Numbered from the stretch's first letter, positions 19,640 through 25,944 are shown. The stretch: 64,000 nucleotides of DNA from an uncultured Candidatus Melainabacteria bacterium (GCA_949841365.1 CATKZI010000006.1:62001-126000); one strand, 5' to 3'. The notes: a model not told the origin generated them from the letters alone. A program made the numbers and translations.

Positions 19640-20425
19640 ATGAAAAAGATATTATCAGTTTTGCTAATCTTGAATATACTATGTGCTCCGGTTCTTGCCG
19701 AATACGACTTTTCGGATGAGGCGCAGGCTGAATTTGACAGAAATAATAAAATTCAGATAAAAGATAATTTTTCAAAAGCAAAACAGAAAAAAGAACAGGT
19801 TGAAGAACGGACCAACTATGAGCCGTCACCGCTTTTATACGAACCGACACCTCATCAAAGGCCGCTTCTTTATGGTTCTATAGTCACTGTACCTGCAGGT
19901 ACAAGTTTCAGCGTAACTTTTGATTCGGGGATAAGTTCGGGAAGTTTGGAAAAAGACGACAGATTAACTGTGCGCCTAACCAATGATTTTATTTATAACG
20001 GAAAATTAATCGCACCTGCAGGAAGCCTTGTTTACGGTTCGGCATCAGATGCAAAAAATGCAGGATATGCCTACGGCAATGCTGAAATTGAATTAAATTT
20101 TAATGAGATTTTAACTCCTGACGGTAATATGCTAAAAATATCTACTGAAAATATTTATATGAAAACCAAAAGCGAACGTGCAGTAAAAATGACACGTGAC
20201 GTTGTAATAGGTGCTTTGGGCAGTATGCTTATCGGTGCAGCATTCACGGCACTCGGCGGCGGAAACAGCGAGGATTGGGTTCGGAATATGGCAATTTACG
20301 GCGGAATGGGAGCTGCTGCAGGCGGTGTAAGAGGTGCAATGCAGCGCGGTCAGGAAGTAAATATCCCTGACGGTACGACAATTCAGGTAAAATTAACGCA
20401 TCCGTTGGATGTCGCGGGGTTTTAA
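19640..20425 (+). CDS. Secreted protein with TrbI/VirB10-like beta domain and glycine-rich helix
   Basis: 261 residues with signal peptide MKKILSVLLILNILCAPVLA. A charged, Pro-containing linker precedes a beta-rich domain (about 78-170: TVPAGTSFSVTFDSGISSG, LIAPAGSLVYGSAS) resembling the periplasmic domain of VirB10/TrbI conjugation proteins or FlgA-like folds. A Gly/Ala-rich hydrophobic stretch (about 190-235) follows, then a repeated barrel-like ending (VNIPDGTTIQVKLTHPL). It is probably an envelope protein. It is immediately upstream of the vWA operon but separated from it by a converging LuxR-type gene that overlaps its end by 33 nt. Assignment to a fold is tentative. Confidence 0.6.
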   Translation: MKKILSVLLILNILCAPVLAEYDFSDEAQAEFDRNNKIQIKDNFSKAKQKKEQVEERTNYEPSPLLYEPTPHQRPLLYGSIVTVPAGTSFSVTFDSGISSGSLEKDDRLTVRLTNDFIYNGKLIAPAGSLVYGSASDAKNAGYAYGNAEIELNFNEILTPDGNMLKISTENIYMKTKSERAVKMTRDVVIGALGSMLIGAAFTALGGGNSEDWVRNMAIYGGMGAAAGGVRGAMQRGQEVNIPDGTTIQVKLTHPLDVAGF

Positions 20426-20701
20426 GTTATACTTAGCTTGAACTCTATACATCATATCAAAAGTAAAAATTCCGTGTTGCAGAGCTTTTACAACTGCATA
20501 GGTTCTATCATCAACACAAAGTTTATCAAAAATATCTTTAATGTTCTTTTTGAACATTCCTTTTGAAACATTAATTATTTTTGCGCCATCGGAATTTGTG
20601 TATCCGAACGAGATAATTGATAAACATTCCGTCTCTCTTTCCGTTAATACACAATTTTCTGACAAAACATAATTTAACTTTATGCTTTTCGCTTCTGACA
20701 T
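20393..20701 (-). CDS. LuxR/GerE-type helix-turn-helix protein
   Basis: 102 residues. The segment LTERETECLSIISFGYTNSDGAKIINVSKGMFKKNIKDIF matches the GerE HTH (the LTERE start, recognition helix and VKTH-like position occupied by FKKNI). There is no receiver or ligand domain, so it is a stand-alone regulator like short GerE proteins. It has no SD; a TATTAT six bases before the ATG suggests a leaderless transcript. It lies back to back with the vWA operon and is a candidate regulator of it. Confidence 0.75.
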   Translation of the reverse strand: MSEAKSIKLNYVLSENCVLTERETECLSIISFGYTNSDGAKIINVSKGMFKKNIKDIFDKLCVDDRTYAVVKALQHGIFTFDMMYRVQAKYNLKPRDIQRMR

Positions 20702-20736: not shown

Positions 20737-20770
20737 TTAGCCAATCGGCTACTTTTTATAAATGTGAATT

Positions 20771-20799
20771 TTGCATTTTTCACAAAAATATGCTATATT
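20771..20799 (+). promoter_or_regulatory. Promoter of the vWA/FHA/TonB operon
   Basis: TTGCAT, 17 bases, TATATT, then six bases to the ATG at 20806. Leaderless arrangement; divergent from the LuxR-type gene 105 bases away. Confidence 0.65.
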
Positions 20800-20805
20800 A
20801 CTTCT

Positions 20806-21480
20806 ATGAAGTTAAATAAAAGATTAGTTACATTAGGTTTAATATTATTAGTATTATCGGTAGCTGTAAGGTTTGTTTGGGCGGGATTAAGACAAATTAA
20901 AGTTGATGATTTCCACCCTGCAGCAGTAATTTTTGTAGTGGACAGTTCAGCATCAAACCAAAAACGCCTGCCTGAGCAGAAAAAAGTTTTAAGACAGATT
21001 TGCAACTTGCTTGATCCTGAAGATCAGATAAAAATATTGAGAGTTTCAGAGGATGCTTACCTTATCTATGAAGGCACACCAATGAACGGAAGCGGGATTA
21101 CAAAATCAATGGACGCTTTTACTCAATACGATTCAAAGGATTACGGAACCGCATACGGTGTGGGGTTAAAAAAAGCTTTTTCTCACGCATTGACAATGAA
21201 AAAAGACGGATATGTTCCCGCAATCGTTGTTATCGGCGATTTGGAAAACGAAGGCGCTGTTGAAAAACAGATTAACTGGGAAACTCTGCCTTCTAATGTC
21301 CAAAACGTAAAAAAATATGCGCCCGATATTTCTATGATGTTTTTGGATGCGCATCCTGCGAAATTGGATTTGGCAAAAGAAAAACTTACACCTGTTCTTG
21401 GCGAAGCTCATTTAATAGTTTCTCCCGAACAGAATATCGATAAATCAATCAGAAGATTTCTTCATGCGTTAGGAAGGTAA
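20806..21480 (+). CDS. Membrane-anchored von Willebrand factor A domain protein
   Basis: 224 residues from ATG at 20806; an upstream GTG at 20764 lies before the -35 and is rejected. One membrane anchor (LVTLGLILLVLSVAVRFVW) is followed by a vWA domain beginning AVIFVVDSSASNQ with the metal-site D46-x-S48-x-S50. IVVIGDLENEG fits the later conserved strand and acidic loop. vWA domains bind partner proteins through a divalent metal. First gene of a tight operon (three bases to the next), so its partner is likely the polytopic FHA-like protein. Confidence 0.78.
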   Translation: MKLNKRLVTLGLILLVLSVAVRFVWAGLRQIKVDDFHPAAVIFVVDSSASNQKRLPEQKKVLRQICNLLDPEDQIKILRVSEDAYLIYEGTPMNGSGITKSMDAFTQYDSKDYGTAYGVGLKKAFSHALTMKKDGYVPAIVVIGDLENEGAVEKQINWETLPSNVQNVKKYAPDISMMFLDAHPAKLDLAKEKLTPVLGEAHLIVSPEQNIDKSIRRFLHALGR

Positions 21481-21483
21481 AAA

Positions 21484-23085
21484 ATGACGATTACAATTTC
21501 AACATCACAAGGCGAAAAAACTTTTAACAAAGATGTAATAAATATCGGTACAAACCCAAACTGTGACGTAGTTTTGAATTTGGGCTACGACATTTTGCTC
21601 ACCCTACAGTATGCTAACGGCAAATGCACTATTGTAAATAATTTTCAAAGCGACAAAGTACTTTTTAAAGGTCAGCCGATAAAAAAAGTTGAAGTAACAA
21701 ATGTTTGCAAACTTATGTTTGCCGAAACTGACGAGTTTGTAAGTTTAAAAGTTACTGCAAACGCACCTGCAGTTAAAACCATTACTTCAATAGGTAATGA
21801 GGATTTAACAGAAGAAGATATTAAAGGCTTATACGGCAAAGACGTTAATGCCGTTACAAAGGTTAAGCTCGAAAAACAGAAAGAGGATTTGGAAAGCGCA
21901 CGTGTTTCTATAACAAAACAGGTTGCGTTCCATATTAACGACTTGAAACAAAAGCTTTCAAACAACTCAAAAACAAGCATATTTTTACATATTGCGATGT
22001 TTTTCAGCTCAATGGTCTGCGCATTCGGAGTTTCAAATTACCTTATGGGATTGAATATCAAAGAATCCGCAAACTTCCTGCATTTGCCGACAAATATTAA
22101 AGTTTGGGCAATTTACACAATATTGATTTACGGAATTTGCTTATTGTTAAAACAGGGAGTTTACCTGTATCTCCAAAGCAATGTGCAGAAAGAAATGTCA
22201 CGCTCGGCAAAACTCGGGCAAAGCTTTATGCTTATTTTCTCATTGATTTTTGTGCTCGGAATTTATGTTGTAAACCTCGTTTATTATATGAATTTGAATG
22301 ACTTTATGACATTTGCAATATTTATTTCATTCTTTTTCTCAGGGATTATGGCTGTTCTTGCAATATCTTGCGGATATTTCAAATGCAACACAACAGAATG
22401 GACTATATTACTTGACAAATACGAGTACAGAGAAGATTTTGAAAGCGTTATAAAATCTTACAGACAATGGATTGAAAGATATATAAACAGTTTGAGCAAT
22501 TCAAAAATTCAGTATATTAAAGACAAAATGTTTAATTTGCAGTTAAAATCTGTCGGCGAAATGGTTGTCGGAATTTTAACAGCACCATTTTTGGCTTACG
22601 GTGTTTCAAACACTTTAGCAATGTGTTTCCCTGAAGCTGCTGGCTGGGTAAGAATTTCGGGATTAAGAATAAGCCCTGTATTTTTAACTCTTGCAACTTT
22701 CTTGATTATTTTTGCGTTCTTTTCATTTGTAAACGCATTTTTATGCACTAAAAAAATTCAAGGTTCGCAGGTAATCAAACAGGACGGATTTTCTGACTAT
22801 CAACACCACGGTGTAACAATTTACGGGCTTGAGGGTGTAAGACGTTTGGAAAGCGAAAGACGCCGTTCTCTGGCAATCGCTTGCGCAATTATATTTATTG
22901 AATTTGCAATGAACATTTCATATTTTATGACCGAAATCGGCGGTGATATGCAGGGAATGTTTTTAAGTTTAGTTGCGGCACTTGTTCCGACAGCACTTTT
23001 GATTGCCGAAACAATGATGTTAAGTCAGACAAAATTTGATATTTACGCGTGTGACGAACTGTTAGCAAAAGTAGATAAAGATTAA
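21484..23085 (+). CDS. Polytopic membrane protein with N-terminal FHA-like domain
   Basis: 533 residues. Residues 1-95 have the strand order of a forkhead-associated domain (KDVINIGTNPNCDVVLN, then VLFKGQPIKK), but the phosphothreonine-binding Arg of IGR is Thr and no SxxH is seen, so phosphopeptide binding is doubtful. A charged coiled coil (about 110-160) leads to about eight membrane segments, with a cytosolic loop between TM4 and TM5 (EYREDFESVIKSYRQWIERY). Tightly spaced between the vWA and TonB-like genes. No homologue with a known activity is recognised; it is probably the central membrane component of the operon's complex. Confidence 0.65.
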   Translation: MTITISTSQGEKTFNKDVINIGTNPNCDVVLNLGYDILLTLQYANGKCTIVNNFQSDKVLFKGQPIKKVEVTNVCKLMFAETDEFVSLKVTANAPAVKTITSIGNEDLTEEDIKGLYGKDVNAVTKVKLEKQKEDLESARVSITKQVAFHINDLKQKLSNNSKTSIFLHIAMFFSSMVCAFGVSNYLMGLNIKESANFLHLPTNIKVWAIYTILIYGICLLLKQGVYLYLQSNVQKEMSRSAKLGQSFMLIFSLIFVLGIYVVNLVYYMNLNDFMTFAIFISFFFSGIMAVLAISCGYFKCNTTEWTILLDKYEYREDFESVIKSYRQWIERYINSLSNSKIQYIKDKMFNLQLKSVGEMVVGILTAPFLAYGVSNTLAMCFPEAAGWVRISGLRISPVFLTLATFLIIFAFFSFVNAFLCTKKIQGSQVIKQDGFSDYQHHGVTIYGLEGVRRLESERRRSLAIACAIIFIEFAMNISYFMTEIGGDMQGMFLSLVAALVPTALLIAETMMLSQTKFDIYACDELLAKVDKD

Positions 23086-23087
23086 TT

Positions 23088-23906
23088 ATGGATTTTTTAA
23101 AAGTTGCGGTAGTAGTTTTATTTGTGGTTCTGACCATCTTGACTATAAAAATACATCCTGAAATACATCAGCCGATGTTAATTGAGGATGCGGATTTTCA
23201 ACTTGTCAGAATAAGCGACACCATCCAAAATACACCGGTTACTGTTGCGCAAACTCAACCTAAAATAGTTACACAGCCTGTATCGCAACCCGTTGAAGTA
23301 AAAGTTCGGGAAGTCGCTCCGCAACCTCAACCTGTTGAAACAAAACCAATCAAAATTAAATTCCCTAAAAAAGAAGTTCCCGTCGAAACTCAAACTCCGC
23401 AAGAGTCGCAGATGGAACTTTTACAGAAACTTTTGAATACTGATATTGAAGATACAAAGGCACTACAAGAAAACGCACAAAAACTTGCCCAAACAATACA
23501 AAAACCTCAGCAGGTTCAAAAGCCCGCATCTCAAAACCCTTATATGACAGAGCAGGAAGAACTTATCGCCTGGGGAAAATGGAGAAGTAACATTCATAAT
23601 CAAATTATGAAAGATTCTGACATCGGTTATGCTCCTTATGGTGTTGTTTTTACTTTTAACTTCCTTGTAGATAAATACGGAAATGTTTCTAACATAAAAG
23701 TTGAAGCTATACCCTCACAATATATGGATATAGCCCGCAACGGCGTTAAACCGGCAATTTCACGCTTACAGAAAAAAGCTATATTGAATTTCCCGAGAGG
23801 TACACGCCGAACTTCAACAGTTGTAAACGGTTCATTCGCTATTGGAGTTCAAAACGTATTCTCAACTCCTGACCAATTTAGAGATATTGAAAGGGTGGTA
23901 CATTAA
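23088..23906 (+). CDS. TonB-like energy-transduction protein
   Basis: 272 residues: an N-terminal membrane anchor (VAVVVLFVVLTILTI), a long Pro/Gln/Val-rich periplasmic spacer (about 60-165, PQPQPVETKP type), and a C-terminal TonB-type domain (about 170-255) with WRSNIHNQI, FNFLVDKYGNVSNIKVEAIPS. TonB proteins carry proton-motive energy from an ExbB/ExbD motor to outer-membrane receptors; no ExbB/D is seen here. The stop overlaps the next ATG by one base. Confidence 0.75.
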   Translation: MDFLKVAVVVLFVVLTILTIKIHPEIHQPMLIEDADFQLVRISDTIQNTPVTVAQTQPKIVTQPVSQPVEVKVREVAPQPQPVETKPIKIKFPKKEVPVETQTPQESQMELLQKLLNTDIEDTKALQENAQKLAQTIQKPQQVQKPASQNPYMTEQEELIAWGKWRSNIHNQIMKDSDIGYAPYGVVFTFNFLVDKYGNVSNIKVEAIPSQYMDIARNGVKPAISRLQKKAILNFPRGTRRTSTVVNGSFAIGVQNVFSTPDQFRDIERVVH

Positions 23907-24040
23907 TGAACAAAATTGTTATTATTTCACTCATTACAATTGCGGTATTAATCTGCGCAACAGCTGCAACACTTGTGTTAAAACCTCAGATGCACAAAAC
24001 AATCCAAATGGAACAAATAATCTTTAAGAGGGTAAAATAA
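23906..24040 (+). CDS. Micro-membrane protein A
   Basis: 44 residues in the TAATG overlap between its neighbours: a hydrophobic segment (VIISLITIAVLICATAATLVL) followed by a short basic tail ending FKRVK. Not recognised. The exact one-base overlaps on both sides show it is translated as part of the operon. The size and topology suit a small subunit or assembly factor of a membrane complex. Confidence 0.7.
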   Translation: MNKIVIISLITIAVLICATAATLVLKPQMHKTIQMEQIIFKRVK

Positions 24041-24204
24041 TGCTTAAAATTATTTTTATTACACTGTTTGCACTTCTTGAAATTCCGTTTTTTATCAAGT
24101 TTTTAAAAGCACACAGAGAATGCGAGCTTACCCGCGAAGTTGCAATTTTAATTATTATGGCAATTATTGCACTTATTATTTTCGGAATTTTTATGATAGG
24201 ATAA
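24040..24204 (+). CDS. Micro-membrane protein B
   Basis: 54 residues with two hydrophobic segments (IIFITLFALLEIPFFIKFL and AILIIMAIIALIIFGIFMI) joined by a short polar loop HRECELTRE. Not recognised. It starts within the previous stop codon (TAATG) and is followed four bases later by the zinc-ribbon gene. A hairpin membrane protein is predicted. Confidence 0.7.
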   Translation: MLKIIFITLFALLEIPFFIKFLKAHRECELTREVAILIIMAIIALIIFGIFMIG

Positions 24205-24208
24205 ACTT

Positions 24209-25006
24209 ATGTACAGATGTAAAGAATGTAATGCCGAATACAAAATAAAACCCGATTACTGCGACTGCGGTAATGATACTTTTGATTATATCGAAGAAAA
24301 ACAACCCATTACGCTTGAACAAAAAGCTGAAATTGTTTCAAGAATTTTCTTTGCATTATGTCTTCTTATTGCAATCGGTGTCTGGTTTATTCCAATGAGT
24401 AAAAAAACTCCCGAGCATAAACAGATAACAAAAACCAAACCGATTACAAATATTCCGAATATAAATAAAATTTGGAACGATACCCCGATATATCAACCGA
24501 AACCCGAACCAAGAACAGAACCTATAATACTGACTCCGACAGAGCCTGTTCAAAAAAAAAATCTAGTTCCGCCCAAGGTTATTACGCCTAAACAAGCTCC
24601 CGTTATAAAACCTGTTGAGCCAGTTAAACCTGCGCCTGTCGTAAAACCTGTTGTAAAAACCGAACCGATAATAAAATTAGAACCCGCTAAACCTGTTTAC
24701 AACCCAAACAGCCCCGCTATGATTGATTATAAAACCAAACTCAGAGCTAAACTGTTTTCAAAATTTGCAGTAGGAAGCATTCAAGGTTCTGGTTCTTGTT
24801 CAATAAGTTTTGCCGTAGATAAATCAGGCAAACTTATAAACCGCAAATTCATCAAAGAATCCGATAACAAAAGTCTAAACGATACAGTTTATTATATGCT
24901 TATGAGTGTACCTTATTTTACAGCCCCGCCTGCAGAGTACAACGGAAGTGCCATAAATATGACGTTCTCAATAAATAATGGCAACTATGCCATAACTATA
25001 AACTGA
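24209..25006 (+). CDS. Zinc-ribbon, single-TM, TonB-like protein
   Basis: 265 residues with an unusual order: an N-terminal cytosolic zinc ribbon (YRCKECNAEY, then DYCDCGNDTF; four Cys), a membrane helix (about 50-70, IFFALCLLIAIGVWFIP), a Pro/Lys-rich spacer (about 75-170, KPVEPVKPAPVVKPVV) and a C-terminal TonB-type domain (FAVDKSGKLINRKFIKES). It is a second TonB-like protein in one operon. The gene contains a ten-A run that stays in frame. The zinc ribbon could couple the protein to a cytosolic partner. Confidence 0.72.
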   Translation: MYRCKECNAEYKIKPDYCDCGNDTFDYIEEKQPITLEQKAEIVSRIFFALCLLIAIGVWFIPMSKKTPEHKQITKTKPITNIPNINKIWNDTPIYQPKPEPRTEPIILTPTEPVQKKNLVPPKVITPKQAPVIKPVEPVKPAPVVKPVVKTEPIIKLEPAKPVYNPNSPAMIDYKTKLRAKLFSKFAVGSIQGSGSCSISFAVDKSGKLINRKFIKESDNKSLNDTVYYMLMSVPYFTAPPAEYNGSAINMTFSINNGNYAITIN

Positions 25007-25053: not shown

Positions 25054-25794
25054 TCATAGTGAAAAATTAAAATTCAAAATAATCGTCAACTCCTCATTAA
25101 AGAAGTTTTCAGGAAACGGTTTGAAAGGCGATGCTGACTTAATCGCTTCTCCCGCATTGTTATCAAGTTCTTTGATTTTTGACGATTTTAATATTCTGCA
25201 TTTTTTAACCGTTCCGTCTTTATTCAACGTCAAAGCCATTTGAACAAGCAAATCTTTCTGACCTTTTGCTAAAATATCAATATGTTTTCTCGGCGGAACT
25301 TTCCAGGCTTTTTTAACTTTTCCCTGCACTTCATTCACATAAGGCGCATAGTTAACATATTTGCCGTCAGGTGAAAATACAAAAGATTCCTTGTCTGATA
25401 CAAAAATCTGTACGGCATGAAGTTTGCCCGACGGGTAATCATAAATTATTCTGCATTTTTGAAGCTCAGGACGGCGGAAAGTAACATATTTAAGCTCATT
25501 TGTATCAGAATTATAAACCAGTTCCGCACCGTAATTTTTCACATATAAATAAGCATTGTTCTGTGTTCCGTCATTAGGAATAAGAGTGTAATCGTGATAA
25601 TATTTCGGATATTTATCCGTTCTCACATACGGTTTAATTCTGTTAAAAATTATAGCAAGAGTTTCATTCACTTTTTCATAACTTGATGTTTGAGCAGGAG
25701 TCAAAAACTGCGGTTCAACCTTAACATAAGAAGCCGCAAAAGCCTGCGAAACAGACATAAACACTATAAAACATAAAATTAAAAACTTTTTCAT
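25054..25794 (-). CDS. Secreted protein with TonB-like C-terminal domain
   Basis: 246 residues from ATG at 25794 (AGGG upstream), with signal peptide KKFLILCFIVFMSVSQAFA. The middle part (YLYVKNYGAELVYN, VTFRRPELQKCRIIYDYPSG) repeats beta strands resembling antitoxin-like or MORN-like sheets. The C-terminal 90 residues (VPPRKHIDILAKGQ, MALTLNKDGTVKKCRIL) resemble the TonB domain of its converging neighbours, without any membrane anchor. It lies 47 bases from the operon end; a soluble periplasmic partner is plausible. Confidence 0.62.
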   Translation of the reverse strand: MKKFLILCFIVFMSVSQAFAASYVKVEPQFLTPAQTSSYEKVNETLAIIFNRIKPYVRTDKYPKYYHDYTLIPNDGTQNNAYLYVKNYGAELVYNSDTNELKYVTFRRPELQKCRIIYDYPSGKLHAVQIFVSDKESFVFSPDGKYVNYAPYVNEVQGKVKKAWKVPPRKHIDILAKGQKDLLVQMALTLNKDGTVKKCRILKSSKIKELDNNAGEAIKSASPFKPFPENFFNEELTIILNFNFSL

Positions 25795-25944
25795 AATAAA
25801 CCCTAATAAAATATTAACATAAACATGAAGAAATGTAAAACTTCTGCCCAAAACCTTAAAGTTTTCTCCAAATCATGCCGATATAAAAAATATGATTGAC
25901 ATTTAAAAAAAAATTATTAAATTGAAATCAGAAAGGATGTATGT

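Follow-up and report, generated by a model that had tools for sequence, protein, structure and literature searches.

A six-gene operon of gut Gastranaerophilales

We analysed a 64,000-nucleotide stretch of DNA (the window) from an uncultured Candidatus Melainabacteria bacterium (GCA_949841365.1 CATKZI010000006.1:62001-126000; G000:C6:62001-126000 in our collection, in which G000 is the window's own genome). The host lineage is the Gastranaerophilales, non-photosynthetic gut relatives of cyanobacteria, which are diderm and have lipid A genes (PMC4040986). The window carries a compact operon of six co-directional genes on the plus strand at positions 20806-25006. In order, these encode an anchored von Willebrand A protein (vWA), a polytopic protein with an FHA-like domain (FHATM), a TonB-like protein (TonB1), two membrane micro-proteins of 44 and 54 amino acids (mic44 and mic54) and a protein that joins a zinc ribbon to a TonB domain (ZnTonB). 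All six open reading frames are present and are separated by junctions of 3, 2, −1, −1 and 4 nt, matching the gaps of −1 to +4 nt claimed in an initial annotation.

Our survey drew on a species-level genome collection and covered 80 loci; these were the top hits of a single scan and are therefore skewed to close relatives. In every testable case (79 of 79 for each pair) the vWA gene lay immediately 5′ of FHATM, with a median gap of 20 nt, and TonB1 immediately 3′ of it, with a median gap of 2 nt. Because the gene order is identical in all of these loci, the grouping goes beyond chance; the homologues are not scattered, which bears out the initial description of these genes as a unit. ZnTonB was found downstream in 63 of 71 loci, mic44 in 49 of 71 and mic54 in 27 of 71, the last in its own genus only, and a secreted protein that we call gzip was encoded upstream in 41 of 71. 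At two loci (L062 and L082) the flanking genes are changed or inverted and the vWA-FHATM-TonB1 block is unbroken. Gene order was still recognisable at FHATM identities as low as ~40%, and more diverged copies retained a core of vWA, FHATM and an arm protein, with exceptions.

Of the 382 genomes sampled from the class, 201 had FHATM, as did 29 of 97 genera, with nearly all occurrences in one family; in a wider sample of the phylum, all FHATM among the matches listed belonged to that same family. An exception from another family, G050, has FHATM on an 8.7-kb contig of a genome that is 66% complete and may be a binning error. Many genomes have a second, diverged FHATM copy. A tblastn search of phage and plasmid records gave no match to FHATM, and we rejected a phage or plasmid origin; PADLOC gave no match either, and we likewise rejected a role in antiphage defence.

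The vWA protein (20806..21480, plus strand) has one N-terminal transmembrane (TM) anchor followed by a von Willebrand A domain, which matched Pfam VWA_2 (1.8e-7) and VWA, both above cut-off. Among 33 aligned members, the MIDAS set D46/S48/S50/T115/D145 (DxSxS...T...D) is kept with few exceptions, in agreement with the intact metal site described initially. The protein is single copy, was present in six of six tested genomes with FHATM and was absent from two without it. It is probably periplasm-facing, and its anchor, RLVTLGLILLVLSVAVRF, has no SHLS histidine and no membrane Asp. In two second, diverged FHATM copies (L174 and L176) the anchored vWA is gone and secreted vWA proteins adjoin FHATM, apparently as substitutes. 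Secreted vWA proteins with DYSGSM or DYSSSM motifs were seen beside FHATM operons at L117, L130, L173, L174 and L176. Upstream of the vWA gene, a promoter-like pair (TTTGCA, 18 nt, TATATT) lies within window positions 20770-20806; it ends at 20799, so near the vWA ATG at 20806 that the transcript may be leaderless. Promoter-like matches are frequent in this AT-rich region (37 found versus 22.6 expected).

FHATM, the TonB-type arms and the micro-proteins

FHATM (21484..23085, plus strand; 533 amino acids) consists of an FHA fold, a cytoplasmic helix and eight predicted hydrophobic TM helices. Its AlphaFold2 model had a pLDDT of 80.5, with about 80 for the FHA part. The model of residues 1-92 (21484..21759, plus strand) aligned with FHA-1 of Mycobacterium Rv1747 (6ccd) with a VIA Z of 13.8 over 92 residues at 2.0 Å. 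The predicted fold is the same, but the two domains share 14% identity and FHATM lacks the phosphate-binding Arg; the corresponding position, residue 23, is Ser in 16, Thr in 15 and Asn in 5 of 36 diverse members. Judged from sequence, the phosphothreonine-binding residues of FHA domains (Gly-Arg, Ser, Asn) are not all present in FHATM, the Arg being lost. The initial label of an eight-TM protein with a degenerate FHA domain is therefore right, since the fold is modelled and the Arg is replaced. In genus g22, several genomes (L169-L172) encode a lone 99-amino-acid FHATM-type FHA domain with the membrane part absent, adjoining a TolC/MarR/HlyD/MFS-type efflux operon.

Conservation is concentrated in the membrane domain (residues 108-533; 21805..23082, plus strand). 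K223, E359, E473 and E509 are invariant among 36 FHATM sequences down to 40% identity, and the three glutamates are located in membrane helices, where they fit ion coupling but do not show it. Mean conservation was 0.48 for the FHA domain versus 0.66-0.88 for TM5-TM8, the most conserved part; given the weakly conserved FHA domain, the active part of FHATM, if there is one, would be the membrane domain. Modelled alone, this domain reached a pLDDT of 81.8. It matches no Pfam family, no FHATM member matched PF01618 (MotA/ExbB/TolQ), and sequence-profile comparison with the PDB found no ExbB or transporter homology. The best Foldseek match had an E value of 0.12, and such a missing match is no proof of a new fold; the best VIA Z, 8.6 over 129 residues, was to a designed bundle and is not above helical-bundle noise. 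We found neither an ExbB-like nor another known fold among the Foldseek candidates, although matches that are weak or absent are no evidence that the folds differ. Pfam, profile and fold comparisons thus showed none of the clear homology to ExbB or a transporter family that would have spoken against the initial reading. An internal duplication relating TM1-4 to TM5-8 was also unsupported (hhalign 8.6%, 38 columns).

Eight TM helices, a highly conserved C-terminal half and invariant charges embedded in the membrane would also suit a transporter or exporter, for instance of a lipid or polymer, with the TonB-like arms and gzip forming its periplasmic route to the outer membrane. We consider this unlikely. 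TM5-TM8 weakly resemble ABC-exporter helices, but at a VIA Z of about 7 the resemblance lies within helical-bundle noise and we rejected it. Two loci offer some support, having a large, anchored envelope-type protein of 919-927 amino acids without a Pfam match 5′ of the operon (L123 3217-5976 and L173 7636-10419); against this, FHATM has no consistent Pfam transporter match, and the operon has no recurrent gene for an ATPase or a substrate-binding protein. A secreted protein of ~290-300 amino acids is also encoded 5′ of the operon at both L123 and L173, and these upstream proteins are possibly of an envelope lipid-transport type.

The best supported of the arm proteins is ZnTonB (24209..25006, plus strand), which has a cytoplasmic zinc ribbon, a TM helix, a proline-rich linker and a TonB domain at about 24725-24970. 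It matched Pfam TonB_2 above cut-off (9.8e-6), as did 30 of 34 members in all, and Cys4, 7, 18 and 20 of its CxxC...CxC ribbon are invariant, so that the zinc-ribbon/TM/TonB chimera proposed initially holds. In several genomes of the same genus ZnTonB is represented by two overlapping open reading frames (L036 4412-5201, L040 8965-9814 and L041 8781-9609), either through a frameshift or through an assembly error.

TonB1 (23088..23906, plus strand) has a similar layout, with a TM anchor containing P-x2-H, a Pro/Gln-rich linker and a conserved C-terminal domain of ~120 amino acids. It matched nothing in Pfam or the PDB, its hidden Markov model (HMM) scores lay near those of decoys, and hhalign gave 2.7% to canonical TonB; we therefore rejected TonB1 as a proven TonB homologue. 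Its C-terminal domain aligned with that of ZnTonB at 76% over 53 columns (hhalign). The initial name TonB-like stands for the architecture of anchor, linker and C-terminal domain only, as no homology rose above decoys.

The gene for mic44 (23906..24040, plus strand) starts 1 nt inside TonB1 and encodes a TM helix with a KPxMHK motif. The TonB1 anchor is conserved around P-x2-H in an alignment of 43 TonB1 proteins, and this feature is common to mic44. Comparison of mic44 with the TonB1 N-terminus gave an hhalign probability of 97.6% (E 4.8e-12), versus 8% for a control comparison with the vWA anchor; by this profile evidence, mic44 is the membrane anchor of TonB1 copied as a separate protein. 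At one locus (L117) the place of mic44 is taken by a 163-amino-acid protein that combines this anchor with a TonB1-like head and lacks a linker, a plausible intermediate between TonB1 and mic44. Several other genera have an MHKP anchor micro-protein of 59-95 amino acids encoded upstream of gzip. The mic54 gene (24040..24204, plus strand) overlaps mic44 by 1 nt and encodes two TM helices with conserved E-x-P-F and R-x-x-A-I. Ratios of synonymous to non-synonymous single-nucleotide codon changes were 1.44 for mic44 and 1.10 for mic54, indicating coding selection in both and supporting the two as real genes.

Relation to the canonical Ton system

Neither ExbB/TolQ nor ExbD/TolR is encoded in the operon or among the genes conserved around it. 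The initial statement that there is no ExbB/ExbD holds for the operon but not for the genome: apart from the operon, on contig C2 (L201, G000:C2:8000-22000), we found the gene order gzip-gzip-TonB (385 amino acids)-ExbB-ExbD-ExbD. This canonical locus is followed by an FtsH-like gene and then by FliP/FliQ/FliR-like genes, and a single MotA/ExbB-family gene was found in G000 despite the latter. The two loci are connected by gzip (19640..20425, plus strand), which lies outside the interval annotated initially and encodes a secreted protein with a signal-peptide-like N-terminus, a TrbI/VirB10-C-like segment (the TrbI match is sub-threshold) and a glycine zipper. The closest G000 paralogue of the operon's gzip is the copy 5′ of TonB-ExbB-ExbD (E 1.3e-44, next 2.2e-20). 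Because this closest paralogue precedes a true TonB-ExbB-ExbD-ExbD set, the operon is linked to Ton-type systems. The gzip protein is a likely periplasmic or outer-membrane partner of the operon's products.

The S-x3-H (SHLS-type) motif of TonB anchors is the motor-docking site (PMC12204202). We found it in 0 of 43 TonB1 and 0 of 34 ZnTonB proteins, whereas it is present in the genome's own canonical TonB. Such a lack would be expected if these arms docked elsewhere than on ExbB. The housekeeping ExbB-ExbD-ExbD might still power the TonB-type proteins, leaving FHATM as a recruiting scaffold or sensor. An ExbB-type gene of about 215-225 amino acids does occur in nearly every operon-bearing genome, and FHATM shows no motor homology. 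The missing docking motif and, in TonB1, the conservation of P-x2-H in its stead argue against this explanation, which we regard as possible but somewhat doubtful.

It is also possible, as proposed initially, that FHATM itself replaces the usual motor. This is favoured by arms without S-x3-H, an operon without ExbB/ExbD and invariant membrane glutamates, and disfavoured by the lack of an ExbB-like sequence or clear fold match and by an ExbB-ExbD-ExbD set available in trans. In its strongest form, FHATM would be a new proton- or ion-driven motor unrelated to the 5:2 family of MotA/ExbB/TolQ, with E359/E473/E509 driving arms that lack the ExbB-docking motif and with mic44, as a free anchor subunit, tuning the motor; this seems to us quite unlikely. 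In a first sample, extra MotA-type genes were found in 0 of 16 genomes with FHATM and 8 of 10 without it. The association was gone within genera (g30, g31, g33 and g35 are alike with and without FHATM), so we attribute it to lineage and rejected a tie between FHATM absence and extra MotA-type genes.

We consider it about an even chance that the operon encodes a lineage-specific Ton/Tol/Glt-like envelope-spanning coupling complex with FHATM as its inner-membrane hub. An envelope-spanning complex, as first proposed, is well supported by the architecture of the gene products. In this model, which supposes physical association, with energy coupling possibly through the FHATM glutamates, FHATM would sit in the inner membrane with its FHA domain in the cytoplasm. 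ZnTonB, and probably TonB1 too, would be anchored beside it and cross the periplasm through their proline-rich linkers, offering their C-terminal domains to partners in the outer membrane or periplasm, of which secreted gzip is the likeliest. Through its MIDAS, the vWA protein would bind the assembly or its target in a metal-dependent manner. Having neither arm nor head, mic44 would probably fill or seed the place on FHATM where TonB1 docks, acting either as a competitor or as a stoichiometric assembly subunit.

Several observations weigh against this model. A normal ExbB-ExbD-ExbD motor in the same genome could serve the operon in trans, and the TonB-dependent receptor plug (PF07715) was absent from G000 and present in 5 of 26 genomes. 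An HMM of the TonB1 C-terminal domain alone scored close to shuffled decoys. Certain sublineages have no vWA beside FHATM, or no ZnTonB, and the full gene set is therefore not always needed.

Two further genes flank the operon in the window. A small LuxR-type (GerE) regulator (20393..20701, minus strand; GerE 1.9e-6) is divergent from it, and a secreted TonB_2-domain protein (25054..25797, minus strand; TonB_2 1.3e-10) converges on it. Both are present as first annotated, and neither is a core part, because their adjacency is confined to close relatives or the genus. Apart from the window, we saw the LuxR-type gene beside the operon only in the closest relative (L035/L056), and we rejected it as a conserved regulator; the secreted TonB_2 protein neighbours the operon mainly in the same genus and is placed differently with respect to the block in L062 and L082. 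This bears on the idea of a trans-envelope sensor, in which vWA and the arms would sense the state of the envelope and FHATM would relay it through its FHA domain. The predicted cytoplasmic position of the FHA and zinc-ribbon domains and the adjoining regulator in the window suit such a sensor. However, the FHA domain is weakly conserved and without its phosphate-binding Arg, the LuxR adjacency is not conserved and the cluster contains no kinase or phosphatase, which makes a sensor very improbable.

Comparison with known envelope systems

The operon resembles Ton/Tol systems in that ZnTonB combines a membrane anchor, a proline-rich periplasmic linker and a C-terminal TonB domain, the host is diderm and a relative of gzip lies beside the genome's canonical Ton locus. 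It differs in having a polytopic FHATM and an anchored vWA in place of ExbB/TolQ and ExbD/TolR, in its cytoplasmic zinc ribbon, in anchors without S-x3-H and in a genome without the receptor plug. GltJ of Myxococcus has a zinc-binding N-terminus, and the operon, like the Agl-Glt system (GltG, GltJ and AglRQS), gathers FHA, zinc-ribbon and TonB modules. The nearest known combination of FHA, TM and TonB modules is Myxococcus GltG, whose FHA domain is cytosolic and is joined to a TM helix and a TonB domain (PMC3169522). In the operon, by contrast, the FHA domain is carried by an eight-TM protein rather than by a bitopic TonB arm, and an AglRQS-type motor, TPR proteins and gliding genes are absent; this comparison is one of architecture. 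Tethered vWA force transducers have been reported beside tolQ (PMC12204202). In both cases a membrane-anchored vWA is encoded among envelope proteins of the Ton/Tol type, but the operon loci lack tolQ, and the operon's vWA anchor lacks the SHLS His, the membrane Asp and the ~100-residue linker.

Our searches of the open-licence literature turned up no system described with this set of genes, in line with the initial annotation. New here are mic44 as a copy of the TonB1 anchor, the separate canonical Ton locus with its gzip paralogue and the lack of S-x3-H in TonB1 and ZnTonB. To our knowledge, one motor family (MotA/ExbB/TolQ) is generally held to power contact with the outer membrane. In this widespread, conserved operon of gut Gastranaerophilales, TonB-type arms are paired with a polytopic partner of another kind, which makes it directly testable whether such arms can also be energised or organised in a second way. 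The operon also offers, in mic44, a clean case of a neighbouring protein's membrane anchor giving rise to a micro-protein, and L117 has a plausible intermediate.

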